From assembly GCF_048128805.1 (NCBI RefSeq), contig NC_136012.1, positions 7,882,121 through 7,946,120 of the forward strand: a DNA stretch of 64,000 nucleotides, given 5' to 3'. Both the position numbers and the translations under genes were made by a program. The notes under the pieces were generated by a model. That model was given only the letters and a program-made list of their open reading frames with translations. It had not been told where the DNA came from and ran no database searches. Source of the DNA: Centroberyx gerrardi (lineage: Eukaryota > Chordata > Actinopteri > Beryciformes > Berycidae). This document shows positions 26,534 through 63,290 of the stretch, one piece after another; positions within the stretch are counted from its first letter, which is position 1; every line of letters starts with the position of its first letter.

Positions 26534-29500
26534 TTTGGAAAGAGAGAAGGTGAGAGCGACAGAAGGAGACAGAGACAGCTGGAGAGAGAATGTGAGAAGT
26601 GCAGACGTGACAGTGGGCAGACAGACAGATTTGGGGAGAAAGTGTAATACACACTTACTGGAGCTGGTCGGCATCGCACGGTGTGTCCTAGAAAGATAAC
26701 AAAACAGGATAATGGGAAAGTGAACAATGCCAATAATACCATACTGCAGATATGAGGTCATTTAGGGCGACATATTGGTGCTTTTCACTCATGTCTTTCA
26801 TTTCTCTGCTAGTTCAGGCCCACTTAACATAGCTGCTCAGTGCATAGTTTGTTGTTAGGTATGTCATTCATAGTGCTGTTATTTTCCAATGCTCATATTT
26901 GAGTATTTTCATAGTTTCATTCACAGTTTGTGTTAGACTTCCCTGCTGCAATCATTTCCTTGCAAAATATTCTTCAATATTCAGCCAAATTATTGCACAG
27001 CAAGTCTGTATGTACACAGACCCTGACCTTAACAGACAATGATGTTTTAGTACATGTGAATGTGAATGTGAATGTGAATACGAATGTGAAAGGGACCTTG
27101 CCCAAGAGAACCACGTAAAGGGAAATGCCCAGTGGATAATGCAAAATAGGGGCATTACGAAGGAAATGAGCCAAAAAATGAACAACACCGGTGTTTTCCT
27201 TTACACTAGCATTCTTGAGATGAGTAATGCTTACCCACTAAGAAGTCAATAAGCCTGTTCCCTTATTCCCTTGGTAAAATGTAAAAGTAGACAGGGCTAG
27301 CAATTCAGGCATGGTTCCAGGCTGGGTGGAAAATCATTGAGACTGATAGAGAACAGTATAGAGAACAATGCACAGTAAGAACAAGGACATGACAGATTGA
27401 ACTGACTATTGAGTTATGACAGACCCGCTCCCGGAAATGGAGTCTACTGCAATCGATTGGTTCTGTGAAGCTAATAATAAATTGGAACCAGGATTTACCC
27501 CTTTGTGTGTGTGCATGTGTGTGTGTGTGATTTCGCTATTACCTTTTGCTTCACTGAATCTTAACCAGGCAAACCAAATAAGACCAAATCCCACACAGCA
27601 ATCACATGGAAAAAAGCAAAACGTTATGTAATGTTGCCCAGTGTGTGTGTGTGTTGTGCGTAAAACTGTGGGCATGAGCAGATACTTATATAAGAGCTAC
27701 GTGATAACGGCTGCAAACCCGCCAACTCACTGCTTTTGCACAGTTTGTGTTGCTGGCCTGGCTGCTAGTGTGTGACACAGAGTTGTATCAGCTGTGGAGG
27801 TGTTTTGTTACTCTCTCGGCCTACACTGTGGATTCACAGAGCGTACAGTATAGCTCTAAGCAGAGCCATGAAAAGAACCAGTTATGTCATTTAAATTTCC
27901 AGATCAAATAGTTTCAATGGGAGTTTCTAGAGAGCTCCAGTTTCCCCTAAAAGCACAGGACTGTCCTCTGCCGCATTGTTGAAGCATGACTCAGCTTGTA
28001 ATGGAGGAGTTTGATGCATCCCACGTAGCCTGTGACTCAGCCGCACAGCCTCTGCAAGAGAGGAGCAACACTCTGCCATTTGTAATGCTCGCCCTATTCT
28101 GGCTATAGATAGGCATTCTCCCTTCGACACAGTGCTGTGACTTTATGAGCTTAAAAGCTGAGTCATTTTGCATTAAGACCCACAATTCATCTTGTCCAGT
28201 GGATTTTTTTCTTCTTTTTCTGGAGTATGATGCATGATAAAACAGTCTAACTTATATCGAATATAGGCCTGGTTTATATTCTGGCATAGCATATAATGGC
28301 ACATACAGAGTTGCAGTGTTGCAGCACTGATACTCCATTTAGACCTGGGTCAAATAGTTATTGTGTTTGTAATGTGTCTGGTTTCTGGTGTTGGTTGACT
28401 TGTACAATTTCAAATATCTTCAAGCCAGCATTTAAGTATGTGAAAGGATCTTAAACACCATTGGATTTATGTTTTTCTCACATGACCTGTTTTAAAATCA
28501 TTAGTGGTTTAATGCCAAGGTTTCTCTATCCCTTTCTTCACCTGTGTTTCATAGTTAGTTTTCTGACCCTCTAACGGCCAATCTAAGGCATGTACCCTGT
28601 ACTTGTGAAGTTGTAGTTTCAGTTTTGTCATCTCCCTTCACTCCCATCTTTCCTGTCTTATGTTACTGTACCCTATCTAATAAAGCAGAAATACCTAAGT
28701 AATGTAATGAACTCACCCTGTGTTGTTTAGGGTGACCCATGTGCGCGGCCCGTGAATGGTGTCGGCCACTCTGCTCCGAGCTCTGACTGGTGGCCGTGGA
28801 GGCTGTGTCTCTGGTCCTGGATGAATCTGATTTACTGGATGGAGACTCGGATCCGTGGCCCGGCCCTGAAGCCTGGGCTGGGGATGGGGGGGAGTTGGCT
28901 GGCCGTCGGTGCCCAGGACCGGGGTGTTGGTGCTGGGGATGCGGAGGCGGGCTGCGGGTGGTGGCGGGTCGCTGTTTGCGGTGGGGGCGGTGTTTGGGTT
29001 GGAGGGGTTCAGGGCTGGTGCTGGTTCCATCGGTGAGGTGAGCGCCACATCTGCCATACCTGTCCCTTGCCGCGGGGCCCTCAGTCGGTGGCGGGCTTCT
29101 GTCTTTACGGCTGCCCCCGTGGTGAGAGTGTTGGCCGGTGGGGTGGGGGTAGTGATGGGGCGGGGGGCTACCATGGTGGTTCCTAGCCACGTACGAGATC
29201 AGTTTATCGGGATTGGAGTGGTCGGAGTGTTTCCGTGACTGAGGGTTGCTGCGAGCTGGTTTCTCCTGTGTCCCGGATGCTTTAGGATGCTGCTCCCTCT
29301 CTTCCCCTGAACTTTCTTTGTGCTTCTTGGGGGGCAGCTGAGGCTTGGCCGGGCCAGGCGCTTGGGCTGGGGCAGAGATCTTCTCAGGAGTTTTAAGACT
29401 GTTCACACCCAGGATGCTAAGGTGGGATGGACTTATAACCTGTTTTGTAATCTCGTCCAGGAAGGCTGAGAACTGCAACTTCCCCTGCACAAAATTCTCC

Positions 29501-31039
29501 CTGGCTCTCTCCATCTCAGCTTGTGTAATCCCTTTCCCCTTCTCCCCACTCTGGCCTTGTCCTTTAGCCACTCTTGGGGACAGCACCTCCATCGACTTAG
29601 CCTTGCGGATGTCTGCATGAGGCTTCCTGTTCTTGAGGATCCCTTTGCCGGGCAGCTGGCTGGAGGACACTGCCCTCTTGGGTCCCCCGGAAACCCCGAG
29701 CAGAATGTCCTCGTCACTGAAAGCCAGGCTTCGGTTCAAGCTCGCCGTCTTATAGAGAGGTCCGTAGTCCATTTTAGGTGCCCTACGCTGTCCCCCTCCA
29801 AGCTCGCTGTCACTGGTCTGCAGCAGGCCTTCCTCACTGCGGCTGTGACCCCGGTGAAGAGGAGAAAAACCATGCGTTCCCTTCTGCTGCGACCTCCCAT
29901 TCACCTGGCCGTAGACACCTCCATGGTTGCCGTGTTTGACGGTGGCAAAGACTACGGGCTCGCTGCCATCGTCCTCCCGGAAACCTCCACGCACATCTAG
30001 GATGTTGGAGCAGGACAGGGAATGCTGCGGCCGCTCGGCGTGACGAATAGAGAAGGGATCGTTTGCGCTCACCTCCGTGTACCAGGAGGAAGAAGAGGAG
30101 GTGGAAGAGGATGAGGAAGAGAGCGAGGAGGAGGAGGCCCTAGAGAGAGTTACAGATGTGTGGTGGTTGTAGAGTATCTCGTCTTCCTCGCCGTGGTGAA
30201 GCTGCTGAGGCTGGTGTTGGTGGTGTTGGGGATGGTGGTGGTCATGGTGAGGGTTGCCGTGGAGATGGGGACCGCGTTGATGGTGGTGTTGGTGGTGTCC
30301 ATGGCTTTCATCCGTGTTTCTGTCACTGTCATCTAACTTTGTGTAGCTGCAACACAAGGATAGGTAAGACTGAACAACTTTAAAGATGTGTCTACACATA
30401 TCAAGCGTCCATTCATCTGTGTAGCCATGGCTGTAGTGTGTGAATATTTGTGCACACTTTATAACCAATACCAGTATCTGCTAGTTTGATTTCAGAAAAT
30501 GGATAATACATAATAAGGCCTTCTTTTTCATATGCAAGACTTTTGCAGCTTCTGCTCTAAAATGGCAACTTTCAGTATGTGCTTGACTTTAATTTCTAAC
30601 ATCCCTCCCCTTATATGAATCTAAATCCGGCAAACAGCAAAGAACCGTCCTACCTGTGTGACTCAGTTTCTTGGTGATGGTGAAGGTGATGATGATGGTG
30701 AGGGTGTTGTTGGTGATCATGATGATGATGATGATGTTGGTGCTTCCGTGGCTTGATCTCGTCCTGGGCAGAGGGGCTGTGAACAGGCTTGAAAAACTTC
30801 TCCATCACCCGTCTCTTCCCCGGGGGCAGGTTGGTGATGCCGTCCTGGTTAGGTTGACCATACAGCGGACACGGATGGTGATCAGTGAAGTGCTGGTCCT
30901 CGGCTGTTTCCTCGGCCCTGCGAATCTGGTGTCTGTCCGATGGTCTTCCTCTCTGTCCGGCTACAGCTTGTCTGTCGATGCCAGCCCCAGGGATCATCAC
31001 TCCAGACCAGACAACGGTCTGCTGCTTTTGACAGCCATT
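23172..31039 (-). CDS. Uncharacterised His/Ser-rich coiled-coil protein (BEGAIN/TJAP1-like coiled coil), 5' end not found
   Basis: Seven exons join in phase: 31039-30654, 30346-28717, 26687-26659, 25904-25776, 25005-24939, 24756-24649, 23771-23172, giving 983 codons including the stop. Exon 1 as seen is preceded by CTAG and has no certain start; the first in-frame ATG in it is at 31000. It encodes a poly-His region (30660-30740). The 1.63-kb exon encodes more His tracts, poly-Ser, a conserved-looking block with LNRSLAFSDEDILLGVS and KPHADIRKAKSMEVLSPR, and a proline-rich basic tail. The next four exons form a coiled coil (ENSDLHQNLLQTVVCIESLE to RTIAALENIN) whose exon order and heptads resemble BEGAIN and TJAP1. 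The last exon adds about 199 residues including ISTAIYKKMAAGYAATQ. I do not recognise the orthologue; a scaffold or adaptor role is only inference. Confidence 0.72.
24320..24677. repeat. Tandem duplication of a 180-bp unit covering part of an exon and its donor
   Basis: Unit 1 is about 24320-24501 and unit 2 about 24502-24677. Both start with 'gaaaaaaataatgtgtg', contain TG-rich sequence and 'gtggtttcagccagcagatg', and end with 'cactcacattgatattctccagg' followed by 'cgatggtcc'. Unit 2 ends inside the coiled-coil exon 24756-24649, so unit 1 carries a decayed copy of the exon's last 30 bases and its GT donor. Confidence 0.85.
24765..24802. repeat. (CA)n microsatellite
   Basis: About 19 CA units, 8 bp upstream (transcript sense) of the His-rich gene exon 24756-24649. 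Confidence 0.8.
25384..25418. repeat. (CA)n microsatellite
   Basis: Perfect CA repeat in an intron of the His-rich gene. Confidence 0.8.
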
Positions 31040-32361: not shown

Positions 32362-33120
32362 CTTGTAGCAGTGTGAGACAGAGAGACAAACTGCCCTTTT
32401 CTTTACTTGGTGTGTTGGTGTGGGAAAAGAAATTAGTTTTAACATATAGCCTACATATAGACATGAAAATAGAGAGAATGATGTATTTATAGGCTATGAA
32501 ACCACACTATGATAAAAGAAATTCCAGACAAGGTCGCAAAAATAGGGAGAGATCACTTCATGCCTGAGTAGAAATGAGGAATGCCATTTCCACTCCCTAC
32601 TCCCTCTGCTGGTCAGCAAAAGCAATTCCCATTCCATCACGCCTGGTAATTTTCCACACAGTTGCAGCAGCCAGTTATAGATTTCATTCTGGATGTTTCT
32701 GGTTTGATCACGTCCTCTTTTCAACTAACACCAACACTGTAATAGTATAGATATCACTGGCTCTTCAGTTCAGGTTGAACTGGACATAAAGCCTGCACAG
32801 AAATAACTAAAGCTTATAGAAACTGGTACTATAAATTCATGCAACATTTTTGAAAGATTGACATCCCACCCGCAGGTTCCGTCGAAGACAACTGCATACT
32901 AATCTTACAATAAAGAAGTTCTTATTGGACGTAGGTCATCTAAATAAAACAAAGAAGTACGTGAGTTGGCAATTTTCTATTGTTCATCAATCACATCAAC
33001 AGCAGAGCATTGCAGTAAACGGGAAGTAGATCCGGCAAACCAAACATATTCTGGTTTGATCCGGTTTGTAAAACCTTGTTACACACAGTACAAGATTAAT
33101 CCGAGCAGCCGTTCCTGCTA

Positions 33121-33515
33121 TGACGTCAGCTGTTTTGACTTTCAGCAATAATGGTTTGGAGAAATTCAGGATGTTTTAGTGTATTTTATATCTCGATTAG
33201 TGTTCCATATATTGTCATGTATATAATTTGACTACCATTCTCAGCACATTCATACAGTTCTACTCGTTGTCTCATTGAGCTACCTCAAATACAAAGAAAG
33301 GAGCACATCTCTTTTGTATTGATCCTGGAGCTGCAAGTTTCTATTTTTAGTTAACGTTCCCATAGTCGAATGCTTGGTAACACATTTAGTTTTTATTTCG
33401 GTCCCCTGGCCGCGATTAACGTCAATAAGCTTATTTTTTCATGCTAAAGTGGATCTACTTTCTTGTCGGATGAATCATCTCTGGACGTTAGGCGATCCAC
33501 CCCTATGGTATAAAG
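33121..33515 (+). promoter_or_regulatory. Candidate (bidirectional) promoter region of malat1
   Basis: A perfect CRE TGACGTCA lies at 33121-33128 and a TATAAAG box at 33509-33515. They sit between the divergent His-rich gene (minus) and the malat1 interval (plus). A TSS about 25-30 bases after the TATA box would give a transcript of about 6.5 kb, the length class of MALAT1. The TSS is inferred only from these motifs. Confidence 0.3.
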
Positions 33516-33539
33516 TATGCTCGTGACGCCATTTCAAAT

Positions 33540-36500
33540 CACACACTGCAATGATACGAACTCGGCGCGATATCAGACGGTGCAGGTTATATAGATTTTT
33601 TTTATTTTATAACACTTAGGGGTTCGTTAGAATTGATAGGTGTGTTCTGCTTCAGCGAATTTAAACCAATGGGTAAAAATAGAAGTTTAGACCGTTTTGA
33701 GAAGAGTGAGGGGCGCAAGGCCACCTAGGCCCTGTCGCTGGCTTACAGAGGCAGATAACTACACTTTGACAAACTTAACGTTACTTAGTATTTTCAAATG
33801 TTTGTCAGTAAATGTTTCAAAATAGCAAGATTTGTGTTACCTAGTTGATTCGCTCAACATTTAGTCGACGAGTAACGTTAAGTTTTGAGGAGCAAGTCTA
33901 CGTTTGCTAGGCCCAGTTAGTCAACGTTAGACTAGCGTAACCGTTGGTCGCCATTTGAATTTTGAAAACAACTCTTGTTGATCCGGCGACAGTTAACCGA
34001 GGCTGTTAAAACATATTGGTACAGCAAGTTAACTTATTTTTTTTCAACGTAAATGATGTTGTTACGGTAGATGGGCTATTTTGTTGATAATTAGCGTTAA
34101 GTAAATATTATGGATTTTAATATACTTATTGGCAGTTGGCTCAAGGCAGCAGCTGTGACGTAAAAGCCTGCAAATGTTGGCTATATGCTTAGAATAACGC
34201 AAATAAGTTGTCCAACATAACGTTAGATATGTTGTGAAGACAGACAGATCCTCAGTTGGCTTTGTTTCAAACATTGACGATTTAGACTTCTCAACCAGGT
34301 CGCCATCGCTGACGTTATTTGGTACAAGCAATCGGTCGGGTCAAGATGGCGTCGAGAGATGGAAAGGGAGCGGTCAGGGTCTTTATCAGCTGTTCAGCAA
34401 ACAATTTAGGAGTCACCTTATCCTACAATTGCCAAGTATTTTCTAGTGGCAGGTGATACTAAGGTCTTACCAAGATGGCTGGTAGCCTAATCAGTTTCAA
34501 GGAAATATTACTTGAGGCATCAAGGAAAACATTTAAATGAGACTAATTCGACTTTTGAATAATAGTAACAGTCAACTTGTGAGGAAATGTTTTTTCATTA
34601 AGAGAAAGATTTTTATTTTTTTTTAAAACTATAATCCAGAAGAATAGAATTGACAAAAAGCCAGGCGTAAATAAAAAAAAAAAATGGAAGAATGCAAACT
34701 GGAAATTTGGAGAGGCAGCTATTCTATGAATAGAAAGGAGAATGAAGACAGCCAAGTCAACTCAGAATAGAAAGCTAGAGAAACGGGCTATATAAATAGA
34801 AGCAAAAGTTACAAGTGCACTTGCACAAGATGGAAGTTGCGCTATCGCAGTACACTTAAGACATTTTTTTTAGACCAAGCTTTTGAATAGGAACTGAAAG
34901 GAAGCAATCAAGCCGTTGACACTAGGTGCTGTGATAGAATCATAAGAAGTCGTCAAGATACAATCTTTGAAGATTACTTTTGTGTTAGCCAGGAAAGAGG
35001 GCAGGGGTCATTGCCTTAATCTCTCTAAAGTATGTGGGTCTTTGTTTGCTCGAGCATTCTGACAAAATTAAGATTGTTTTATTTTTTTTCATCTTTTTTT
35101 ATTTTACTTTTTTAGTGGAGTGCATTTTTTGCCTTTTGACAGGTGTCTGTCCTAGAAGTGGATGAGTTTTAAAGTGCAAGAATAGGTTTTCAAAGAAATG
35201 ACAACAGCTCTAAGGAAATGCAGGCTTCAACTCTAGTGGCAGATTCAAGAAATCACAGGCTTCTACATGTTACCATAGAGCCCTAGTGGTAGCTCAAAGA
35301 ATCATAGGCTCAGCTTACTCCATATGGACTTTGTTTTGAATTGTCTGCCTTTTTTTTTTTATACACTTGCTTTAGCGAAGAAGGAAGAATTTTTTTTTTT
35401 TCCACGGGAGAAATGGACTGAGTTATCATCAGGAGAAATGGACTTAGTTATCGTCAGCAGAAATGGACTTAGTTATTAGAGGAAGATCACAGGACCAGCG
35501 GGGCGCGAGGCCGTAGGAAACGGGGAGGACCAGAGTGGAGCCAGGCAGGACCAGAGGGGATCGAGGGAAGAGCAGAGGGGACCCAAAGGAGCAGGAAGCA
35601 GCAGCCGAGTGTACACCAGAGGGCGCCAGAGCCGCAGGGCAGGGTAGCAGCGCAGGACGGCCACCAGTGACGCAGTTGTCCAGAGCAAGCCAGCCAGCCA
35701 GTGATGGGAGGGTACCAGCTGCAGAGAGGGGGGGACAGGGAGCGCCAGTGTCGTCTAGCTTCACAAGTTTAAAAGAAAAGAGATGGGTTTGTATGTTGGG
35801 TAGAGGTATCTCTGTAACATTCTTAGGCATTTTGGTAATATTCAACTTTCCAAGAATAAGTCTTGTAGAACACAATTTCTCGCACAGCTCTCTTCTTCCT
35901 CTTTTCAGGCAAGGTGTGTAAAGCGTTATGTACCCGGGTCACCCCTCCTGTTGTGCGCTACTTGAGTGTGGTGGTGTCTGCTGTGATGAATGCCTTGGTA
36001 GTGTGCTGGCGAGAGGACCGCCTTATGGACTTCTCAACCCCCTGCGGTCAGATGTAGTTCCCCCAGCCGGAGGGAGAGGCGAGGGATTCCTCTGTTATTC
36101 AATAGGTCTTCCCCAGAGAAGTTGTCTGCCTTGGAGTGTGAGAGTGGATGGTCTCCTGTGCGCCCGATTGATGTGTGTATACAGCAACTCTTCAGTGCTG
36201 CAGCAGCGCCTCTTTGGTACAGAGCAGCTACATCTACGGCTTAAAGTGAGCAGTGAGTGTAATGCATGAGATGTACATGTGGGTGTAACTATCCTGTACA
36301 TTGTTGAATGATATTGACTATACCAAATGGTAGTATGAACAAACAAAACAAATTTTGTACCTGAATTGGTAGTCATTCTTGGCTAGTACGTTTCTTTGGG
36401 GGTTGAAGGGTGGGTTGGGGGGGGACTTAAAACGTTTTTCGAGTTCTTCTTTTCACAGGCCTGCCCCCAAAAGCTGACCATCGAAAGAATCCCTCTGTGG

Positions 36501-39500
36501 TAGCCGCCGATAATCAATACAAGTCGAGCTCATCATATTATGTATAGCGCTAAGGATCGGGATCATGTGAATCCACTGCGTTTTTAAGGGATGTAGGAAG
36601 GTATTTTGTACTGCTCATTTGTGGTAAATTCCATCAGATTTTCATTTTCTACATTAAACTTTGTACACGTGTTGTAAATGGGGATCCATGCACATCTATG
36701 GGGTGATGGGAGGGTGGGCTGTGGGGCGTTAACCCATCTCTTCCTAGACTTCACAGCTTCGTGTTATGCAGCGCTAAAAGGTCCAAAGGGCTTGAATAGG
36801 AAAGGACCAGGTGCACCCCATCAGATTCGAGTGGACATTTTGCCCCGCAGCGTAGCAACATGCAAATGAAACTAGACCTCCCGGTGTAGCAAGAAGTTCG
36901 GTGTTTTCCCAGGGAGTGTGGTAACAAGTCCCCTTACTAGATGCCATTGTAATTCTGTACAGGTGTTCAAGTTGTATTGTGGGGTTTTGGGGATGGGGCT
37001 GCTTATTTGTGACTCTTGCAGATTAAGTTATATGGCCCGCCCCTCAAAAACATATCTACTTCGAAGTCCACGTCCACTGTCCATAAGGAAGGATTCCTTC
37101 GCGTTCAGGCCTGTGGTATTTAAATGTTTCTTTTGGCAAGTAGTTGATGTCAATTTTGCCTGAATTGTGTTCATAATAATGCAGTTGTAGGTCATTCCTG
37201 TATTGGCAGTAATGCACTTGTAGTTCTGTACTGCTTCATTGTATTATTTGGGGTGGGTGTTTCTGTGTGGGAGGGAGGCTTCTTTTTCCCTTTGCATTTT
37301 TCAGTGTGCTGTGTCCTGTGCGCTTTCCAATACTCAAGACCATCAGGATCTCTCCTAACTCATTGTATGTAAAGGTTTACTTGCGCATCAAACATCACGT
37401 AAGGTCACTAAATGTGTTCACATTTCTCTTTTTAACATTCATTGTTTGGCAAAATGCCTCCATTGCAATTCCTTTGCAATTAGTTACTATGCCTTGTATT
37501 GATAATACAATGAGTGAACTATCTGTAAAGGATTTAATTATTGCATAATAAATGCATAGCTTGTTGTGATTGAATACAGTTTTGGTATGCATTTGTTCTT
37601 TTTTGGGTATTTGGGGCTTGTGTGGGGGAGCTTTTCTTGTGCTTTTTCAGGTATGACTAAAGCTTGGAGCTTTGTAGAGCACGGATGTGACCTGGGCTTG
37701 ATGACAGCTTTTTCAAAGTGGAAATTGAAGGCAGATAAGTTGAATCCATCAAATATTGATGTCCGAAAGCAGAAAATTATTGATCCTAGAGAGGACACTT
37801 ACCTTTGAATGGGCTCAACTGCCCTGATTGGTCTTGACATGAAAGCAACTTGCAATGCACTTGCAATACTTGAATGTAGAAATTGCACTGCTGTGCTTTC
37901 TTACAAGAAAATCTCTTGTGATAACGAGAAGATTTGATGGACCCTCATTGATTCTGACGTTATCTGCAGTAAAGCATTCTGTGTTTGGGTAAGGATAACA
38001 ATAGTCAGTTCTATGATACTGTGAGGGTGGGGAATAGGGGTGTTGCTTGTCTGCCTTTTTTGATCTTACAGAATTGCACAAGTCCAAAGGAAGAATGCAA
38101 TCTACCTAAGACACCACAGGAATCATCCCGCCCTTTGAATTCAGCCCAACACGCAGTTTGAACAAATGGGAGACAGGTCGTTTTTATGCATTTAGATTTG
38201 ACTGTTAGCCCTCAGCTACTAGCCCTTGCGCAACTGTGTAAGTGGCAGGTTGGTCACTAGTCTTACAACTTGATGATTTGCAATCGCGCAACTGTGCAAT
38301 AGTTTTCAAATTTGAAGTAGCTGAGGTAAGCTGTGCATTGTGCAGCTTTTGATTTGGACCGAATGCAGCGCAAATGTGTTGCTTAGTTACTGTTGTGCAT
38401 TGGTTTTGGTTGGCAGTATCCCTGCATTTTTCTCTTCACAGAAATCAGTGTGCAAGACTGGTTCAAGCACGAGTGAAGTCTTCTAACCTGGAGCATGTAG
38501 TAAGGTGTTGGCTTAACTTAAATTGTAGTCAAATCAAACTTGACTCCTGCAATGTTGTAGTGTGACACAATGGACATCTTGAACTGGCTTTATGTTAACC
38601 TCAAATGATCAGTAACATCAAACAATGCTTTACTGGCATATTCCTCTTTGGCCATAGGGCCCTATTGCTTTGCATCTTAAACCATAAGATGAGTAGAACT
38701 CGAAGTCTTTGAGTATTGTGTGGTGGGTGTGTGTTGTGTAGGTCACTCTTTGTTTCAGATCATTCTCGTCTGTCCACTCCGATCTCGCCTGCCTCTGAAT
38801 GCAAAGCATCTGTGGAAGCTGTCAGCGAATGAGTGTGGCCCCTGAATGAAGTACCAACCCTCTGTGCGCTTGAGCTTAAACCTGAACCCCGACGTCCTTC
38901 GCAGAAGTCCCCCTCTGTGTGCTGTGTATGCCTTTCTTTCCCTTTTGGTTTCTTAGGTCAAATTGCTCAACTTAAAAATTGTCTTGAATTGGCATCTGGG
39001 ATGGCCTAACCGTGTGATGGAACTCTGAGAATCCAGTCACATTACAATCAAGAGCCGCAAGCTTGTCTTGCTAATTCAGCATCACTGCAGTCTCATGGGT
39101 GCTAAGTTAAGTAATTTCGGTTCCCTTGATTTTTCTTTAACATACCATGGCTTTAATGTGTAACATGATACGTTGCATGCACATCAGCTCTGCATAACAT
39201 TTTGATTACATACTTCACAACATAATGTTCATGAAGTCGCTGTCAAACATTGCAGTAGATTTGGCCGGGGTTGTGGGGCGGGGCAACGCACTCTTTCTCT
39301 TCCTTTCAGATTTCTCTTCATTCAGCTTAACTCACTACTGAGCCAGGCGACTTAACCCCCGCAGGGACTCATGGGATGATGATTCGTGACTTGGTACAGC
39401 CGACCTCTAGGGTAAAACCTTAAAAGCCTCCAGGAGTTGAGCGTCATTGAGGAAGAGTAGCCTGCTGCGGTATATGCTGCTGCGACTGCTACGTTAGTCT

Positions 39501-40029
39501 TGGTAAACAGTAACCATATTGACACAATTTGTCATATTGGATGAGCACTTGGGGATAAGTATCGGGTTTGCGTGGGAGGGGGTGGGGAGGCATAAACTCT
39601 CCCTCTTTTTTTTTCCATTACAGCCAAAGTTAACCACTTGCAACCAAGGCTCGACCGCCAGTTCGTTTGACCTGTGAGACCGGACGAGTGTCACTGATAA
39701 GTCACATATTTGGGGAAAAACGGCCCGAGTATCGCCAGGGATAATGCTGGTATCATGGCTTTGTAAACATGGAAACTTAATGGACATCGTGGAATCATTA
39801 ATAGTCGTGCACCATGCAGTGTCGTTCTGGGGATTGCCGGGGATTGGGGAAACCAGATGTCTTTTTCTTCTAGTTTCAGCCTCGTGACCGAATGAAATCT
39901 TCAGGTGGTGACAGGATAGAGCAGCCAGGTGTTGAGGGGTTTTCTTTTCCTGGAGGAACAAACTCCTGGGTTGTGTTCCTCCAGGTTTTGCTTTTAGCCC
40001 TTAGTTACAGCAACAACAAAAAAGCAAAA
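33540..40029 (+). ncRNA. malat1: malat1 long non-coding RNA (5' end uncertain)
   Basis: The 3' end is certain in kind: at 39940-40029 the sequence has both U-rich motifs, the intervening stem and the A-rich tract that form the MALAT1 triple helix, immediately followed by a mascRNA. Upstream, about 6 kb contain no protein-like open frame and no convincing coding splice pairs. The gene lies 2.3 kb before scyl1 on the same strand, the order seen in mammals (MALAT1-SCYL1). MALAT1 is an abundant nuclear-speckle lncRNA; RNase P cuts it at the mascRNA, and the mature 3' end is protected by the triple helix instead of a poly(A) tail. The 5' boundary given is a guess from a TATA-like box. Introns with acceptors such as 35909 (ttcctcttttcag) cannot be excluded. 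Confidence 0.85.
39940..40029 (+). ncRNA. malat1: MALAT1-type ENE + A triple-helix RNA stability element
   Basis: U-rich motif 1 TTTTCTTTT is at 39940-39948. A perfect 10-bp stem (TGGAGGAACA 39951-39960 with TGTTCCTCCA 39974-39983) follows. U-rich motif 2 TTTTGCTTTT is at 39986-39995. The A-rich tract AAAAAAGCAAAA is at 40018-40029. Motif 2 is the exact Watson-Crick complement of AAAAGCAAAA in the A-tract. Motif 1 can form the Hoogsteen strand with a C+.G-C triplet at the same place. This matches the published MALAT1 architecture of U.A-U triples interrupted by a C+.G-C triplet and a C-G doublet. Confidence 0.95.
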
Positions 40030-40086
40030 GACCCCGGTGGTGGCACTCCTGACTGTCAGGACAGGGTTCAATTCCCTGCGGTGTCT
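40030..40086 (+). ncRNA. malat1: mascRNA, tRNA-like small RNA of malat1
   Basis: Begins directly after the A-tract, where RNase P would cut. The cloverleaf parts are an acceptor stem GACCCCG/CGGTGTC, a short D-like GTG/CAC arm, an anticodon-like arm TCCTG/CAGGA with a five-base loop, and a T arm CAGGG-TTCAATT-CCCTG. The body closely matches mammalian mascRNA (GGTGGxTGGCACTCCTG; GGTTCAAATCCCTGCGG). The fourth acceptor pair is C opposite U, a mismatch absent from the mammalian form. RNase Z cleavage and CCA addition are expected after 40086. Mature mascRNA is exported to the cytoplasm. It is not a translating tRNA. Confidence 0.93.
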
Positions 40087-42361
40087 TGCTTTTTAGTATG
40101 CTGTATGCTAATTTATTTTAGTCAGTCATGGATCAGGAGATACCATTTCATGTAGTAATGCTAAATAAGTTATCAAGCCACAAGGCACTGAGTGAAATGT
40201 AGTCATATTGTAGTAATCAAGACACACCTTTTGAACCTCGGGTTGTGGGCTTTATAGCAAACTGGAAGTCTTTCACTAACGTTTAATTCCCTTCTAACTA
40301 CCATAAATGTCAAATTAATCCCGCCCCCCTCCTTACAGTCTGGGATTCTATATTGGTAGAACACAAAAATCATTAGTTATGAGTCATACATGTATGTTGT
40401 GTTGTCTGGTCTGGAAAATAAACTGACTGCTAAAGATTGTGGTGAATGTTGAAATGTTCTGTTGGTGGGGATGCTCAGTCTGCATGCATATAATCTGAGA
40501 TTACACTTTGTGTTGGGCAAAGTAACCGCAGGAAAATAAACTTTATAGAATACCAAAAATAAAGCCTAGATCAAGTTAAAACGGTGAGCCTTTATGTCAA
40601 AATGTAGAAATTAACATGAATAAAGTTATGACAACTTTTCAATGTCTGCCCTTGTTTTTATATCAAATGTTCAAAAATTTGTTGACATTTGCTGAAAACA
40701 AAATTGCACACATTTTATTTCTTACAACCAAAGAATCATGGATTGCATTGAATTCTACATATAAGATAGAAGCCTGTAAACAGGCCCGTTTCACATTCTG
40801 TATTGAGAAATCGGTGCATTACAACTTCCTGTTGCCAGCTATGGCCTTCACTAAATCGCTCTACAACCTGCCCAAAACTTTTAATTTATTACATTATGTA
40901 TCTAGTGCTAGTAACCATTACAATTTAGTTGTTTTTGTTGGATTGGTTTGTCAATAAGTTGCAAAAAGGGCCTATTGAGTGGAGAAAATGAAGCATGTAA
41001 TGTGTCATTACTATTTCTTCAACAATCAATATTGGATATATATTATATTGTAAACATAATATTAAACAATTTATTACATGGCTAAAAGTAGTTTAACACT
41101 GGAAGAATGTAATATTTGAATTTAAACCGCTGTGTGCTCTCCCCTGTCCTGACCAATAACAGCACCCTTGGTGACACCTGGGTGAAGCTACTTGAATTTG
41201 TAGATGACACCAGGTTAGTGGGTCCAACTGGTGATGATGACAAGTCCATCTACTGCAGAAGTGGCCAGACTGGTGTGCTGATGTGCCAACAACAACCCTC
41301 ACTTTGGAATGGGATGTGTTATTTTCTTTGCACAGTGCACAGTTGTTAGATTTCAACACAATGTCATTAACAGATCTTGCTTTGAAAAGCAACACAAATG
41401 TGTGTTGTCCCAAAAACGTGTTTAAATAAAATAGTACATTCTTTTTATCTGTAAACAGAGGATGCTGTTCTTGTGTCACAACCAATCCTGATCCCATTCT
41501 ACAGCTCCATCTTTGAATGTTTCCACTCATCGCTTATCATCGCCTGGTGTGGCTCTGCTTCCTCCTGCTCCAAGGAAAGACAGCAACATGTCATATGAAC
41601 AAATGGAAGTTGCAGTTCGTTGCCGGCTGCCCTCTATATAACAACTGCATGAAGCCAGAGCAGGCAAAGGGCAATGAAAGTTGCTGTCGACCCTGCTCTG
41701 TGTGCCCTGTGTTTTGATTGTGACAAATTGCAAGAGCAGCTTTCAGCAACTGTTTTTATAATTGTTCTCACATTACATTCCCTTAATCGCATTGAAACAA
41801 GGCTGAAACTGCAGTATTGGTGTACCTTCTGTGAATAAAAGTACTCCTTTACAAAATCCTATATGTCTGTCTTTCCTTGCAGATCAGTACTATCACCTGT
41901 CATAAGTAGCCTAATAGCTATAATGATAAAGGCCATATGTCAGTGACACATTCTGAAGAGAAATTCAAGTCATCAAACCTTGCCTGTCTAACACAACACA
42001 AGTAAGTGATTGACCAGGGCAAGAAAAGCTTTTCAAGCAACCAGCCACAGTGACAGGTGGACTCTGAATTTCAGCCAAGTTAATTTCTCAGTGGCAAAAT
42101 AAGTTTTTAAAGGAGGGCAGACATTACAATTTCTATTCCTGTATATTCAGTCCTTACTTATGTCATTGTTAATATGATGGACATACAGGTGGCTTAACCT
42201 GAGCTTAACCCATTTAACCTAGAACGGAACCAACGTGAGGGAACAAAGTTTTTACGGAGCCGTTTAGGTCCGTGCCAATAGCTAGCTAGCTTGCTAGCGA
42301 GCTGTTAATTTTTTCCTGCTGCTGTGTGTGTGTGCTTGATGCGGTGTGGAGGAAAGAGGAG
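40087..42361. other. malat1-scyl1 spacer
   Basis: 2.3 kb with a decayed LINE fragment (41103-41720), several AATAAA words (near 40416, 40535, 40620) and the scyl1 5' UTR/promoter at the right end (about 42180-42361). No other gene is recognised. Confidence 0.55.
41103..41720 (+). mobile_element. Decayed non-LTR retrotransposon (LINE) reverse-transcriptase fragment
   Basis: Translation near 41190 gives KLLEFVDDTRLVGPTGDDD, a match to the F(V/A)DDT RT motif with the GxxxxxDE continuation of fish Rex/CR1-like LINEs. Near 41480 the frame gives FYSSIFECFHSSLIIAWCGS, matching the later FYxxxIESxLxxxIxxWxG block of such elements. Stops and deletions separate the blocks. Confidence 0.6.
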
Positions 42362-45162
42362 ATGTGGTCCTTTTTTGCCAGGGATCCTGTCAAAGACTTT
42401 GCTTATGAACTTCTGCCAGACACCCAGGAAACGTCTGGATTATGGACACTTCATCGGGGGAAGCGAAAGGTAAAGAGAGGCAAGCAAATCACGACCGAAC
42501 CACCGCTAGCTAGCAGAGGTAGCCGGCAGGAACTCGCTTCGTTACGGGGGCCTGTTAGCCAGCTAACGGGAGTGTTTGTTCGCTACTTTGATTTAGCCAC
42601 TAGACACGACGCCCGGCTATATTTTGCGTGCTTATTTGTCAGATGTGTCTATGTCTTTCTCGTCTATTCTGATGATTGAATGTCAATGTTGATCGTGTAT
42701 AATATCAGTCGTTAGGCTGTGTGTATTTATTGCTAACGAAGTTAGCACAGGCTTTGTTTACTCCGGACAGACACGTATTTCTCGCCACGTCACCCCGTTT
42801 TAGCCAAGTTAACAACTGTATTTACAAACGTTTGAAAACACATACTACATCGAATTAATAAGAATTTCCGTGTGTCAGCATTGATGTGGCATGTGATTGG
42901 CTTCACATCCTCACTCTCCTGTAATATCAGTGAGCAGCTGGATCCTGGACTGTCAGTGTCACCACATCACTGCAGGGCCAGATAGTTGCATGCATGGGCA
43001 GCCAAGCACCAGTTCCTGTTCACACCATCGTGAAGGATGTTAATTGTATTTCCTCAGAATATACTCTGGTGACAGGCTACTACTACTGTGCACTGGTCTT
43101 ACATCTCTGTTTGCTTTGACTAGAACACCAAGCATAAATGTTTGTGGGAAAGGTTTTGACTGTCATGTCATTACTATGAAGGATTATTTTCACACCCTAT
43201 ATGCCTCCATCCCATGTCCCCAGACCAGTGGAGAGCCGGTGTCTGTGTTTGTGTACGAGGTGGCTCAGGGAACAGAGCAGCAGACCCAGCTAGCCAAGGC
43301 TGCCTTCAAACGCATGAAGACCCTGCGCCACCCTAACATCCTGGCCTACGTGGATGGATTGGAGGTGTGTGTGTGAGAGAGAGTGAGAGTGATGAGTGGT
43401 TTTTGCACCCACCCATATTAGCTCTACACACACTACCATTGTCTATAATGCTCAAAGTAAACTGTAAATCAGCTTGCTTACAACCCATGGTTTGAATGGT
43501 CTAGTGAGTAGCCATGTGTGATAGCACAAAATTAACATGTAATTACCATATCATCAGTGTCTGTTTTCCACTATCTCCTCTTCTCTGCATGTTGGCTTTC
43601 AGACAGAGGTGAGTGTGAATTGGCTGTAGGCCTATGCAGGTGTTCAGGAGTTAATGTGTGTGCAATAGTTGTAATGAGTAGTGTACTACACAATAAGTTT
43701 GGAGTTATAAAAGCACCCCATTTAGTAGTCCAGTTATGTTCTCAGTCTCATACATGCAAGCCATTTGAAATATCTTAAAAATAATATTAGCTCCCGATAT
43801 TTGTAAAATCCACACTTTAAATGGTTACTATCAAATCACTCCAAACATCACAATTGATACTCGCTAGCAACTCCTTGACAATGTTGCTAGCTTGCATTGT
43901 CATCATTCTGAAGATGTTAAGTGGTTTTCACACCCACTGAAGCTGTGCAACCATCTGCAACTTACCAAAATTCCTTAAACTATTAAATTTCTCAAGGTAA
44001 AACCCTTTCAAGCCGACCCTTTCCGAGCTGTGGTTCAGTCGCTACAGTTAAGTAGAGCTGGGTAAATAATTCAATATGATAATTTATCATCTTATCACTT
44101 TCTGTTGTATAACTTAACAATAAAAAGCAAATACTCATTGAAATCTCTCACAAAATGAGATCTGCTACAAATTGGGGAATATTATTTGAAAAATAGTTTT
44201 ATTTTACTTTATATTATCATGCAGTACAATAAGAACATCAAATTGAATATTGATATGATTTTGCATATCGTCATATATTGATATCAAAATATCTTATGAT
44301 TACCGTGACATTAATTTTGTCCATATCGCCCAGCCCTGTAGTTCAGTAGCATTGCAATGCAGCTGGAGCTATAAACATGCCACAAAATGTTGCTAATCTT
44401 GCTTACTGATGTCTTGCAGACAGAGAAGAGTCTGTACCTGGTTACGGAGCAGGTGACCCCCCTGGCAGCCCACCTGAAGGCCCAGGCAGAGAAGGGCGGC
44501 TCTGGGGAGCTGGAGGTCTCCTGGGGCCTGCACCAGATAGTGGTGAGGAGAGGACTGGAGCACACAAACTGATACTTGCTTTGGATGGTTCCTTTGTCAG
44601 CATCCTCTCTCTCTGTCTCTTTACCCACACTTCTCCTGTGTGCCTCCTCCAACAGAAAGCCGTCAGTTTCCTAGTGAACGACTGCCACCTGCTCCACAAC
44701 AACCTGGGCGTGTGGGCTGTTTTTGTGGACCGGGCCGGAGAGTGGAAGCTGGGAGCCCTGGACCATGTCGTCCCAGAGCAGGGCGACCCCAGTGGGGCCT
44801 CGCTGCCAGCTCCCAAGGCTGTCTACCCCGACATGGAGAAGTATGACCCACCGGAGACGCCCAACAACACCGGAGAGAAATGGTGAGAGAGAGATGGGGG
44901 TGAAAACTACAAAGTGAGAGGAGGAGGTTGAAAAAGTGTGTGAGAGGAGCAAACTAGAGTGACATTATGAAATGGGGAGGAAAAAGGAGGGAGAAGCAGG
45001 AAAATGGGGGGAGGAAGAAGAGGAGAAATGATGAAAGAAAGAGGAGGTTTAGAATGTGACAGTACCAGATAAGAAATACCATGTAAAGGTACCTAAATGG
45101 GGTGTGGAGGAGATGATATTGCACCCATTTTCCTTATGAATCATCCTATGCATTTGAATTGA

Positions 45163-45204
<42 letters not shown>

Positions 45205-48200
45205 GTTCCAGGGCAGGGGAAGTGTGGCGGCTGGGCTGCCTGATCTGGGAGGTGTTCAACGGGCCACTGCCTCGTGCCTCCTCCCTTCGCTCCCTGGGAA
45301 AGGTACGTCATCCAGCAGTTCCCGCTCACTATTTCCTGCCTGTCACCATTATGCATCTCTAAGAGTGGGAGAACCCCTGTCTTACCGAACCTCATGAACA
45401 CAGCAGTTGCTTTTTTCACAGTTGCTTTTTTCACAGTTGCTTCGCTTATAGCCCAAAGTTATCCTTGTGACACGTAGAAGATGACGCGGTCATGTGCTGA
45501 GAATAGTGAATGGTGTTGTTCACAGTGTGGTGTGCTGTCCTCTCTGTGCCCCCAGATCCCCAAGGCCCTGGTCCCCCACTACTGTGAGCTGGTGGGGGCA
45601 AACCCCCGCGCTCGCCCCAACCCAGCCCGCTTCCTCCAGAACTGCCGAGCCTCCGGAGGCTTCCTTAGCAACAGCTTTGTGGAGAGCAACCTCTTCTTGG
45701 AGGAGATCCAGGTCCATACACACACACATACACACATAACCAATCATGTATGGTGGTTTTCACTCGGTTTTGTATCAGAGCCCAAAGCAGACCTCTTCTG
45801 TAAAGTAAAATGTAAAATGTCTATGCATTGCTACAAACCAGGCAGAAACTACAAGCTGGTCACTACTGACAAGCAGCAGATGAACAAAATATATTAAGAT
45901 TGATTTGTTTCTTGTTTCTCATTTCTTTTAAATGTGAAAATGAAGGTTTGGTATAATAGTTGTCATAGATTTGAAAACATCTCCCTAAATGATCCTACAT
46001 AGTCGTTTTCTACCTCATCTCTTTTGTGTCTACCTCTCTCGCTTTCATCTCCGCCATCTTTATAGAAAGAGTTCTGCCATGGTTGATTGTTGGAAAAAAC
46101 TCACATCTAGGAACTAAAATCTGACTCCAGACCCTTCGGTGTCAAAATATTTTAAGATTAATGTCCAATTTAAGTGTGTTTTTTTGTCTTTGTGTATGTC
46201 TGCCTGTCTGTGTGTTCAGATCAAGGATCCGGCAGAGAAGCAGCAGTTCTTCCAGGATCTGAGCGACAACCTGGACTCCTTCCCCGAGGATTTCTGTAAA
46301 CACAAGGTCCTGCCGCAGCTGCTCACCGCCTTCGAGTTCGGCAACGCCGGCGCCGTAGTCCTCACACCGCTCTTCAAGGTGAGGCTTTGGGACATTTTCA
46401 CATGATTTTCAATTTCAGTCGGTATTCCAGAGCACCTTGTAGCCACTCAGATCCTTTCCAGGAGTAAACAAAACCGTTATCCCGTTATCACTGACCCCTT
46501 TCCCTCTCGCTCTCTCTGTCTCCCAGGTGGGGAAGTTCCTGTCAGCAGAAGAATACCAACAGAAGATCATTCCGGTCATCGTGAAGATGTTTTCCTCCAC
46601 AGACCGAGCCATGAGGATACGACTGCTGCAGCAGGTACTTGCCACATGTCAATGGCTTGTAGATACTGTGTCCCTACTCATGCACAGTGCTTTCACCTAG
46701 CATGCACGCCTCAAATGTAGTCATTTAGAGGCACCTGAGAACACAAAGGTCATGGAATATAATTGAAGGATTTGGAGCCCCTGACTAAACGGCTGACTGT
46801 AACTGAAAAGCCGACTCATTGTAGTAAATGATTTATGTTTTATCCATGTCTCATAAGAAAGAACATGAATGGTATGAATATTTAGCCTGAATGATCTGTC
46901 TCCTCTCATTCATTAGAAACACTGCATTTTAAAACGCCATACTTATCCGTCCGACCAGCTGTCCCAAGATAGACAGGGAACAAAAACCTCAGTGCTAAAT
47001 GGGACAAGCGGGACATTAGTTCCCCAACTGCTTCTTTTCCCCAATATGAAAACATTGATCTGATCTATCTATATTTCTCCTCTCTTCCTCAGATGGAGCA
47101 GTTCATCCAGTACCTGAACGAGGCGGCAGTCAACTCCCAGATTTTCCCTCACGTCGTTCACGGCTTCACAGACACCAACCCTGCCATCAGAGAACAGACT
47201 GTTAAGGTAGGATGCACACTCACACCACCACATATCAGTAGTTACACCATATGATTTCTATATGTTTTAGTTGTCAGCCTGCTGCATCCATTGCAATTCT
47301 CTTTCTGCGTCTGTCCCTGCCATCCTGCAGTCCATGCTGCTGCTGGCTCCCAAGCTGAACGAGACCAACCTGAACCAGGAGCTGATGCGCCACTTCGCCA
47401 GGCTGCAGGCCAGAGACGAACAAGGCCCGATCCGCTGCAATACTACCGTCTGCCTGGGCAAGATCGCTCCCTACCTCAACGCCGGGGTAAAGCACACCTG
47501 CAACACTCAGACTCGGGGTTGGAAATACACTTGTCAGTGAATCAGTTGCAAAGGAAAATGATGTTGTTATATTACGATTAATAACCACATGCATTCGGTT
47601 TCATGTCACTACACTTGAGCCGCAAGATCAAAGCATTATAGATTCAGTGTAATCCCAGCATCACAAGCCTGACTGATCAAGCACTGACCCCTCTCTCCTC
47701 GCAGACTCGACAGCGCGTGCTGATCTCGGCCTTCTGTCGAGCCACCAAGGACCCCTTCCCGGCCTCGCGCTCCGCCGGCGTGCTGGGCTTCGCCGCCACG
47801 CACAACTTCTACAGCGTGACGGAGAGTGCCGCGCGCATCCTGCCCACCCTCTGCGCCATCACCGTCGACCCCGATAAGACCGTCAGGGACCAGGTGAGAA
47901 CCAGTGATCAGGAGGCGTAGGGACTAGATTGTGTGTGGTGTGGCCTTTACACTCAACTGCAAAGTCATTGGTCAGGAGAATAAGGAAACGTTTTGCTTCT
48001 GTCAGCTGTTTTCAACATCCTGTTTTTTCCTTATGGGGTGAATTTGCAAGTAGTACTACTAGATGTTTCACTCATTTGTCTAATCACTGAAAAAATGGAT
48101 GTCGTCAAAGGATAAAATCTCTTCCTTCATGTACCTTAAAGGAGAGGCTGACATGGGTGACTTGTAGGTGCCAAGTGGCCAATCACCACAAAGAATAGGC

Positions 48201-51200
48201 TTATCATTAGGTGGAGGAAGGAAGTTAGAAAAAAATGCATGTGCAGCACACCACAAAAATGACAAATCAAACAGGATTAAGCCTTGTGAGGGGAAAGTTA
48301 CTTTTAAAAGTAATTGGTTACTTTACTTCACCAAGTTACTCTTTATTAAAAGTAACTCCTTAACTTTTGTATTACCCACTTCAAAAATATGCTATAGCAA
48401 TATGGTTTGTGCTGCCAAGTGTGTTGTCCATCATTGGACAACAACCCTTTTTTCTGCTTTTTTTAAATGTGTGTTAACACAAATGAAACGGTCTAAAAGA
48501 AAAATAAAAGTAACAACATTCAAAACTTTTGAAAACTATTGTTGGGCATTTTAGCCTTCATTAGATAGTGAACAGCAGAGTAAGAAAGACAGCAAGAATC
48601 AGAGGATGTTGGCCAAATGTCTGCAAGCTAGGCAAGAGCAACCAGCTGGTCATTGCTGACTCACAATCTTGACAGGTAGGCAAAGTTTTATGGGATATTT
48701 GAATACTGATAATTCTTTTCGGAACCGTTGCTGGCATATGCCTATACATGGCACACTGGTTTGATGATTTAGCTTAAAGCAAGGCAGTAATGCAACCCCA
48801 GGTGAAATCACTGGACAGGACGGGGAGGCCAGACGTATCTTGTGCTGTGATCAACTCTGCCAATTGCCTCTCCTCAGATTACCCGTCTCTTTCTGGGTTA
48901 TGAATTCAGCCTTGTACGCAACCGCAACCTTGCCTCATTTGCTCTGAATGGAATGGAATTTTGTGTTGTCACTGGACTGTGCTGCTTTGTTTCTGCTCAG
49001 TATGTGTTCTCCTTCCCTCCTCCCTCTGTCAGGCATTCAAAGCCATCAAGAGTTTCCTTTCCAAGCTGGAGACGGTGTCAGAAGACCCAACCAAGCTGGC
49101 TGAAATAGGTATGTAACACACTAGCACATTGTGTTGCAAAATCCTATCTCCATAATTATGTCCTATTCAGCCTGTAGCCTTTGTACTTGGTTGTCTTTAC
49201 GTAACTTAATTTTCAAGGCGAGTGAAAACAAAGCCAGCGTTTAGTTTTGCTGTTGACTGCAGTATTGGCAGCAGGATGAATGCACATATTTTGTGATGTT
49301 CTCCATGATTTAACAACACTGACATTTGCACTTCCAGTTTCAAGTGCTGTGTCTAACCAGCCATGCTGGTTGCGGGACACAGTTGGCGATCTCTCCTGAG
49401 TGGAATGTACTCATTTGAAATCCTCTCCCCCGTCCCGTCCCGCAGAGAAAGACGTGGCCTCGTCCGCTCAGCCTGCAGGTGGATCCTCTAGCTGGGCGGG
49501 CTGGGCGGTGACGGGCGTGTCCTCGCTGACCTCCAAGCTGATCCGCAACGCGCCGGGGGCGGAGGGGGGCGCGCCGGGAGAGAACAGCGTCACAGCCCAG
49601 GACACCAGTCCCACCAACGCTACTGATGGAGCACCTGCCCCTGGTATGGAGAAGGGGGGGTATTGGAAGCAATTTGATTCTCTACCTTTTTTTCCCCTAC
49701 ATAAAGTGATGATGGATCTCTAATGGGGAAAAATGCACTACACAATGGATCATTATTGGCTATCAGCAGATAAGGTTTAGCACTCAAACAGTATTAGCAG
49801 TGAAATAGTGGTGTTGGTTTGTTTACAGGGTATCTGTGGGTCCTTAAAAAGTCTGAAAGTCTTAAATGATCTTAATTTGAAGAATTCAAAGTATTAAAAT
49901 TCAATTAAGTTATTACAGGTTTTATTTCACCATGCAATGACAGGTTTCATTTGTGCTACATGTCCACTGTTAGATTAATACAGAGCAGGGTGAGTAGTAC
50001 AATGTTCTTTTGTCCCCATTGCATCTGCTTGATCAAACACAACTGGGCATCACGCCCTGTAACGATTGATTTCCTGTTTCCTTTTTCTTACACTAATCAT
50101 TTTAAGCTTCATTAGCTACATTTGGAAGTAGGCTGCGTTTGCCCGATGTTTCTTTATTTTGGTTTTTAAATTGGTCTTAAATTGAAATCCAGGTAGTATT
50201 ACGTAGATCTCAAAGGTCTTCGTTTAGGCTTTTTGAAACCTGCAGATGCCCTGGTTTCCAATTACAGAAAGCCATTTTCTTCTTAGTATTTTAAATGGTG
50301 TACTGTAGAGAGACAGGACAGAGAGCTCAGAGAGAAACTATATATAGCAGCAGAGTTGGGACCTCTGCAATCCTAAGGTAAGTCGGATAACTATTTGACT
50401 TTCCTTCCCTTTTTATAAACGGCATCCCACCCCATAGTAATACATGGCTGTGTTGCTCCAGTGTAGGAGTGTGCATATATTTGGTTACTAATCCTTACAG
50501 GACTTGACAGTGTGTAGATAACACTTGTTCAGCTGCTGTTGTTCATTCTCTCTCCTCCATTTTTGCTCTTCATCTCTGTGTTTTTCTATCGCAGGTTCTG
50601 AAGCTAAAACACCGCAGGCCTCTCAGACTCACCACGCTGCCTCTAGCCGTGCCAAACAATCACAGACTCCGGAAGTGACAGACAACGACGAGGAGCCAAC
50701 AGGAGACCGCTGGGATGAGGAGGAGGACTGGGGAAGCCTGGAGGTAGTGCGGCGCCTCTGATTTGAAAGTGAAAATGAAATATTCTTATTGAGAAGTACA
50801 CATTTTAGATTATAGTGTTGCACAGTCGTAATGTAAGATCTCGTAAACTGTTGACACTTTTTTTCACAAAGGACCCAGAGAAAGCCCACACAGACCCAGA
50901 TGACTGGAACACCGACTGGTCAGGCATGTCGTCATCCAAAAAGAAGGCCACTGACAGAGGAGTATGTGCTATTATGCATTATATAATATTACCACTACTG
51001 ATAATAATACTGTTACTACTACTACCTGTAATACTGCAAATCTGAATACTACTACTACTACTACTACTATTGTTACTAATATTAAATCTACTATTACTAG
51101 TACTAATAACTAGAAGGCACTTCGTTGCCTCCGCCAACACTGAAACACTTAAACACTTAAAATTTAAGTTAAATTGATTTTTTTCATAGTTATGGCTAAA

Positions 51201-59147: not shown

Positions 59148-59269
59148 GTCTTCAGAAGAACCTTCTCTCTGAGAAGGCCTCCAACAGTAGTCTGTATCTA
59201 ATGGTATGCTGTCTCTAGTAATATCCTGTATGCTCTCTCTTCCCGTAGTACTCTTTCACCGTCTTTTCC

Positions 59270-61271: not shown

Positions 61272-61475
61272 TGAGTGTCCTGCTTAATTAAAGTATTCAT
61301 GCTGTTCCTATCAGAGTCTAACATTCTCTCTTAAGCTCAGTTTGTTAAGCTGTGTAAACTGTGTTATTGTACTCCCAAAGCTGTAGTGACATATCACAAT
61401 GACAGCAGCATTGTCTCTTTATCTCTCTTTGTCTCTTTTTTTTCTCTCTGTTTCTGTCTCTCTCTGTCCCAGGTC

Positions 61476-61898
61476 ATGGAGTTCCCCCAGCATTCTCAGC
61501 AGTTGTTGTCAGCTCTGCGTTCCCAGCGCCAGAGGGGCTTCCTGTGCGACTGTACCGTCCAGGTGGGCTCATCCCGTTTCCTGGCTCACCGGGCCGTCCT
61601 GGCCTCCTGCTCGCCTTTCTTTCACATGTTCTACTCTCCGGGGGGCGCCGGCGGAAACGGTTCCAGCAGCTCCATCACGCTGGACAGCGACATCGTCACG
61701 GCCACTGCCTTCGGCTTGCTGTTGGACTTTGTGTATGAGGGCGTACTGCAGCTGGAGGCCCCTCTGCCAGTGGAGGACATATTGGCGGCAGCCAGTTTCC
61801 TGCACATGAACGAGGTGGTGCGAGTGTGCAAGAGGAGGCTGCAGAGACGAGGGCCTCCGGCTGAAGCGGACAGCACTCGTTCTGAGCGAGGAATGTGA
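61476..61898 (+). CDS. zbtb3: zbtb3-like BTB/POZ domain exon (frame ends early)
   Basis: Preceded by a strong acceptor (ctctgtcccag|gtcATG). The frame encodes [40 protein letters not shown] and [15 protein letters not shown], then [18 protein letters not shown] and [20 protein letters not shown]. This is a complete BTB/POZ domain of the ZBTB3/ZBTB18 group, a dimerisation and corepressor-binding module of zinc-finger repressors. The frame stops after [11 protein letters not shown], about 140 aa, where relatives continue EADSTKKEE. Human ZBTB3 sits at 11q12.3 near ROM1, supporting the call. As it stands only a BTB-only protein could be made. Confidence 0.8.
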
Positions 61899-63218: not shown

Positions 63219-63290
63219 TGACCCTGACGTGATTTGAACACGCAACCTTCTGATCTTGAGTCAGACGTGCTACCGTTGCGCCACAGAGTC
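63219..63290 (-). tRNA. tRNA-Trp-type gene with anticodon CAA
   Basis: 72 bases including discriminator A. The acceptor stem is GACTCTG/CAGGGTC with one G-T wobble. The D arm has the A-box TGGCGCAACGGT. The anticodon stem is TCTGA/TCAGA with loop CTCAAGA (anticodon CAA), and the T arm GCGTG-TTCAAAT-CACGT. The body matches vertebrate tRNA-Trp, and there is no long variable arm as a tRNA-Leu would need. The anticodon change CCA to CAA makes an isotype-mismatched or inactive tRNA. The B-box has TTCAAAT instead of TTCGAAT. Confidence 0.85.

Follow-up and report, generated by a model that had tools for sequence, protein, structure and literature searches.

The analysed window, a 64-kb stretch of the Centroberyx gerrardi genome, carries a MALAT1-type 3'-end module situated between a large minus-strand exon and the gene SCYL1, whose coding start lies 2.3 kb downstream of the module on the same strand (Table 1). 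For SCYL1, 18 of 19 coding pieces were placed, and the protein joined from 12 exon pieces (548 residues, with protein-kinase and HEAT matches) matched the Centroberyx gerrardi N-terminal kinase-like protein at 100% identity with full (100%) coverage, followed by entries from Myripristis murdjan at 96% (best 120 of 1313 matches). Neither Pfam nor PDB yielded a match when individual SCYL1 exons were used as queries. The upstream exon reached at best 72% identity over 90% to relatives of si:ch211-276i12.4, some entries being named otherwise, and none of the best 120 of the 202 matches listed bore a Centroberyx name.

Further features were observed towards the flanks of the window. A BTB-domain exon (61335-61898, plus strand; Pfam E 7.4e-25) and a tetraspanin-like exon below the Pfam cut-off (15191-15508, minus strand) resemble ZBTB3 and ROM1, which are both located on human 11q12. 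A 581-codon open frame at 57510-59255 (minus strand) reads like a coiled-coil repeat protein, with one weak Pfam match below the cut-off. Two tRNA genes on the minus strand (63219-63290 and 63623-63694) are alike at 68 of 72 bases; according to ARAGORN they are a Trp (CCA) and a Leu (CAA) gene, and the latter resembles a tRNA-Trp body in which the anticodon has become CAA, which may be a misreading or a dead tRNA.

Table 1. Positions of the 3'-end module, the predicted transcript and the neighbouring genes in the window.
Feature	Position	Strand	Basis or remark
Large exon of upstream neighbour	28663-30480	-	Relative of teleost si:ch211-276i12.4
TATA box (TATAAAG)	33509-33515	+	One of three TATAWAD-like sites in 32900-34400
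Predicted malat1 lncRNA body, about 6.5 kb, unspliced	33540-40029	+	Inferred from TATA, GC skew, CpG and lack of ORFs beyond shuffles
16 strong 3'-splice-site-like sites	35142-39984	+	Weight matrix; function hypothetical
U-rich motif 1 (U1) TTTTCTTTT	39940-39948	+	Predicted Hoogsteen strand; letters read directly, script placement
Stem 5' arm CCTGGAGGAACA	39949-39960	+	Script placement and folding
Stem 3' arm TGTTCCTCCAGG	39974-39985	+	Script placement and folding
U-rich motif 2 (U2) TTTTGCTTTT	39986-39995	+	Predicted Watson-Crick partner of A-tract; script placement
A-tract AAAAGCAAAA	40020-40029	+	Exact reverse complement of U2; script placement
mascRNA tRNA-like element	40030-40086	+	RF01684 match 40030-40085 plus one predicted discriminator base
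U-rich trailer TTGCTTTTT	40086-40094	+	Exact complement of A-tract bases 40019-40027
Four AATAAA hexamers	40417, 40535, 40558, 40619 (span 40417-40624)	+	Possible fail-safe poly(A) signals
SCYL1 coding exons	42362-52879	+	First ATG 42362; end is that of the last piece placed

The 3'-end module and its tRNA-like element

The complete module at 39940-40086 described in the first-pass annotation is confirmed: two U-rich motifs flank a perfectly paired stem, which consists of 12 base pairs and not of the 10 originally given, and the final ten bases of the A-tract complement U2 exactly. A-rich sequence begins already at 40011, upstream of the A-tract proper. The U1..U2..A pattern occurs once on the plus strand of the window and never on the minus strand, and it appeared in 0 of 200 dinucleotide shuffles of the window, both strands included. 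The letters of U1, U2 and the A-tract allow eight U.A-U triples, a single C+.G-C triple and a C-G doublet, if the register of the human triple helix is assumed. Motifs and complementarity are those of MALAT1, with the triple helix itself being predicted, and the folding energies (z of -2.50 for 39930-40029 and -2.10 for 39900-40100) by themselves lend the module weak support.

The tRNA-like element begins, as had been noted, at the first base after the A-tract. The Rfam covariance-model check proposed along with that observation gave a plus-strand match to RF01684 (mascRNA-menRNA) at 40030-40085, with 72.6 bits against a gathering cut-off of 42.5 (E 2.7e-13), covering model positions 1-56 of 56. 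This is the only module of the RF01684 type in the 64 kb and one of three gathering-level Rfam matches in the window, the other two being the tRNAs; ARAGORN, run over the window, reported only these two tRNAs, and the mascRNA element was not among them. One C.U mismatch is present in the acceptor stem of the Rfam alignment, and the folding energy of 40030-40090 is ordinary (z -0.92). When viral and prokaryotic contigs were searched for the mascRNA core with one exact degenerate pattern, 0 carriers were found. The element starts with GA, and the 5' GG of menRNA is needed for CCACCA tagging.

In Actinopterygii, MALAT1 and SCYL1 follow each other in this order on one strand, without FRMD8, and the jawed fish examined have a single MALAT1-like gene (PMC10869381). 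The module, the Rfam match and SCYL1 on the same strand in this published order therefore make it most likely, and in our judgement highly probable, that 39940-40086 is the 3' end of the fish's malat1, with an RNase P cut predicted after 40029 and the mature RNA predicted to end there. The earlier interpretation as MALAT1 is thus supported, and the gene belongs, as was to be expected, to a known family, with any possible novelty lying in its body. Counting against this reading are the C.U mismatch, the ordinary z of the tRNA-like element, the end of the GC-skew segment at 38742, and a published comparison in which MALAT1 of zebrafish and of coelacanth could be fitted to the mammalian structure model at the 3' end alone, and which states that these may be MALAT1-like (PMC6888369).

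MALAT1-like elements are cited in some fish and in many anole lizard transcripts (PMC10869381, in part), which would allow for a dispersed copy or for a relic that has fallen silent and lost its transcription; we give this little credence, with the module standing where it is expected, ahead of SCYL1 and on its strand, and with U1, U2, the A-tract, the stem and the trailer all intact. It is extremely improbable that the module instead ends a NEAT1/MEN-beta RNA whose tRNA-like piece is CCACCA-tagged and degraded: NEAT1 has a 3' module of the same kind and the Rfam model is joint for both, but the element is nearer to human mascRNA, with 47 of 58 columns alike in the alignment, than to human menRNA (42 of 60; human sequences from PMC9777231), begins with GA where menRNA begins with GG (PMC9777231, in part), and belongs to a lineage outside the tetrapods, from which alone NEAT1 is reported (PMC10869381).

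Directly behind the malat1 mascRNA, the trailer is complementary to the A-tract at 9 of 9 bases, and the two are paired in the predicted fold of 39900-40100. The trailer 9-mer occurs four times on the plus strand and five times on the minus strand of the window, and a complement of nine was found in 114 of 20,000 random 20-nt stretches from 40086-42300, draws that may include the true place. For 40011-40100, the folding energy is -23.6 kcal/mol without the pairing of A-tract and trailer and -32.4 kcal/mol with it (8.8 kcal/mol added), and for 39930-40100 the free fold reached -66.6 against -59.0 with U2:A forced, a comparison without Hoogsteen terms. Leader-trailer interaction reportedly promotes maturation of human MALAT1, going by the title of a 2021 work by Torabi. 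The idea that the pairing blocks RNase P was dropped because of that title. Since the fish trailer is complementary to the A-tract, the human leader-trailer feature appears to have been kept in this fish sequence, the pairing in the precursor being a prediction. The in vitro melting steps of a human SL+A+masc RNA have been assigned to mascRNA and to Watson-Crick pairs (PMC12609000, in part), which would agree with triple-helix formation following cleavage. Further downstream, four AATAAA hexamers lie within about 200 bases behind mascRNA, compared to 0.70 per kb on the plus strand of the window, and possibly act as fail-safe poly(A) signals.

The predicted malat1 body and its acceptor-like sites

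The lncRNA of about 6 kb postulated upstream of the module in the first-pass annotation would fit the TATA box at 33509 and the GC-skew and CpG changes found there. The maximal GC-skew segment within 31-43 kb starts at 33564, and among 26 bins the one at 33501-34000 has the highest CpG observed/expected ratio (1.21); together with the TATA box, these two signals agree on a predicted transcription start at about 33540. The TATA box may be a chance occurrence, because TATAAA is present 22 times on the plus strand of the window, and the GC-skew segment stops short of 40029, at 38742 or, under the strictest threshold, at 38045, with other segments of the window showing stronger skew. The description of the region as a coding desert holds for 33540-40029, whose longest ATG-initiated ORFs have 113 aa on the plus strand and 128 aa on the minus strand, lengths that 22 and 20 of 200 shuffles, respectively, also attained.

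A spliced gene in 33.5-40.0 kb was considered and rejected, as donor-like sites are not enriched and there is no long ORF; the body has 3 donor-like sites against 5.7 in 3-mer shuffles and 10 in the reversed sequence, and the SCYL1 control has 15 against 7.2 in shuffles, with its reversed sequence also giving 15. Two AATAAA hexamers (34670 and 37547), candidates for the kind of internal poly(A) signal that gives NEAT1 its short polyadenylated isoform, are located inside the predicted body. TRF detected two small tandem arrays, at 35407-35476 (25-bp unit, 2.8 copies) and at 35526-35585 (21-bp unit, 2.9 copies), the latter being purine-rich.

Pyrimidine tracts ending in YAG were noticed by eye in the body and tested afterwards, on this one sequence, using a 3'-splice-site weight matrix with assumed frequencies and a score of 9 or more as the definition of a site. 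The G of the AG of the 16 sense sites falls at 35142, 35908, 36458, 36912, 37108, 37650, 38071, 38441, 38758, 38956, 39309, 39325, 39623, 39873, 39879 and 39984. Shuffles of 33540-40029 that preserve 2-, 3- and 4-mers contained means of 4.0, 5.2 and 6.8 sites, with 16 reached in 0 of 200 in each case, and the antisense strand held 3 sites (3 expected) and the reversed sequence 5. At a threshold of 10, there were 9 sites against 3.2, a count matched by 2 of 200 4-mer shuffles. A model-free count gave 17 sense sites (0 of 200 shuffles) and 9 in the reversed sequence. In a sliding scan of 39 window positions on two strands, the top weight-matrix count of 17 fell over the body, at two positions, one of them reaching 42490; the model-free peak of 18 also fell over the body, but 16 was attained elsewhere. 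SCYL1 (10.5 kb) contains 13 such sites against 7.2 in shuffles, and 5 of its 10 real acceptors placed score 9 or more.

The surroundings of the body sites differ from those of real acceptors. YTNAY occurs 18-48 bases upstream of 7 of 10 real SCYL1 acceptors and of 1 of 16 body sites, compared to 154 of 462 body AGs (p 0.014), and TNA is present at 8 of 16 sites against 387 of 462 body AGs (p 0.002); depletion of the strict CTRAY was not significant (0 of 16 sites against 27 of 462 body AGs, p 0.38). Upstream G-runs amount to a mean of 7.6 bases at the 16 sites, 0.9 at real acceptors and 4.5 at all body AGs (permutation p 0.019 against the 16 sites), with 6 of the 16 sites having no upstream G-run. 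At 37650-37651 (plus strand), an acceptor-like sequence abuts a donor-like one (CAG then GTATGA; scores 11.2 and 8.1), the layout of a recursive splice site. Tandem duplication as the origin of the sites was rejected, given that a repeat search yielded only short diverged matches and that the TRF arrays cover no site.

The excess may well stem from a patchy distribution of pyrimidine-rich stretches, or from binding sites of PTBP1 and similar proteins, and be unrelated to U2AF, and we lean slightly towards this explanation. With pyrimidine tracts taken as given, AG endings are just mildly favoured (17 of 239 for YAG, compared with 73 of 2017 for other endings; p 0.011), the model-free count is 17 against 9 in the reversed sequence and its scan peak lies close to the value elsewhere, the pattern was spotted before it was tested, and two pairs of sites (39309/39325 and 39873/39879) are closely spaced while 39984 lies inside the triple-helix stem. 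The weight-matrix excess over all three kinds of shuffle and over the antisense and reversed sequences speaks against it, as does the count at threshold 10.

In human MALAT1, U2AF2 binds two introns with weak pyrimidine tracts, promotes their retention and is required for speckle localisation of the RNA (preprint PMC12934665, in part). From this binding and retention we derive, purely as a hypothesis, that the fish sites might dock U2AF and help to keep the RNA in speckles. In its full form, the malat1 body would be an unspliceable, sense-only array of splice-acceptor mimics, with no matching donors and with G-runs or other sequence in the place of the branch point, which loads U2AF without splicing and holds malat1 and U2AF in nuclear speckles; we regard this tentatively, as rather unlikely to hold. 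Such an array could be the functional principle that MALAT1 bodies preserve although their sequence is not conserved. Among the literature matches listed for MALAT1 with U2AF65/polypyrimidine tract, cryptic splice sites or branch point, titles and abstracts mention no such array.

Proposed course of events and comparison with known systems

An unspliced RNA of about 6.5 kb would be transcribed from near 33540. In the precursor, the A-tract could pair with the trailer behind mascRNA, so that the tRNA-like stem would be lengthened, and RNase P and RNase Z would release mascRNA, as in human MALAT1. The freed A-tract would then pair with U2, with U1 in the groove and with the triples and the doublet listed above, forming a triple helix that would shield the tail-less end from exonucleases. 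The RNA might stay in nuclear speckles, perhaps aided, speculatively, by the acceptor-like sites of the body.

These results set the 3' end and the likely borders of an lncRNA gene missed by ORF-based annotation in a beryciform fish. Should the array of acceptor mimics prove real, the rapidly changing MALAT1 body would follow a simple sequence rule, there would be a reason why the RNA remains in speckles without being spliced, and the array would tie in with the reported displacement of human MALAT1 upon loss of U2AF2 (preprint PMC12934665, in part); the idea can be checked on any published malat1 sequence. Claims of importance are tempered because zebrafish without malat1 are viable and fertile (PMC6633201, in part).

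When compared to MALAT1 of other ray-finned fish, including zebrafish, the locus has in common the order MALAT1 to SCYL1 on one strand, the triple-helix motifs, mascRNA and a long ORF-poor upstream region (PMC10869381 and PMC6633201, in part). Zebrafish malat1 is mono-exonic with multiple start sites and measures about 7.5 kb (PMC6633201, in part), against the predicted length of about 6.5 kb here, the likeness being one of features and gene order. The human MALAT1 3' end shares U1, the stem, U2, the A-tract, the tRNA-like element and a trailer able to pair with the A-tract, the human probe carrying UUUGC behind mascRNA (PMC9777231, in part). It differs from the fish in lacking the C.U acceptor-stem mismatch, in a D-loop that is one base longer, and in having FRMD8 as its neighbour where the fish has the si:ch211-276i12.4 relative. 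NEAT1/MEN-beta with menRNA has a 3' module of the same kind and differs in its tetrapod-only occurrence (PMC10869381, in part), its 5' GG and its lower similarity to the fish element. Finally, the U2AF2-bound retained introns of human MALAT1 are likewise acceptor-type sequences in a mostly unspliced RNA, although their pyrimidine tracts are weak (preprint PMC12934665, in part), whereas the fish sites are strong by weight matrix, with 15 of 16 lacking YTNAY.
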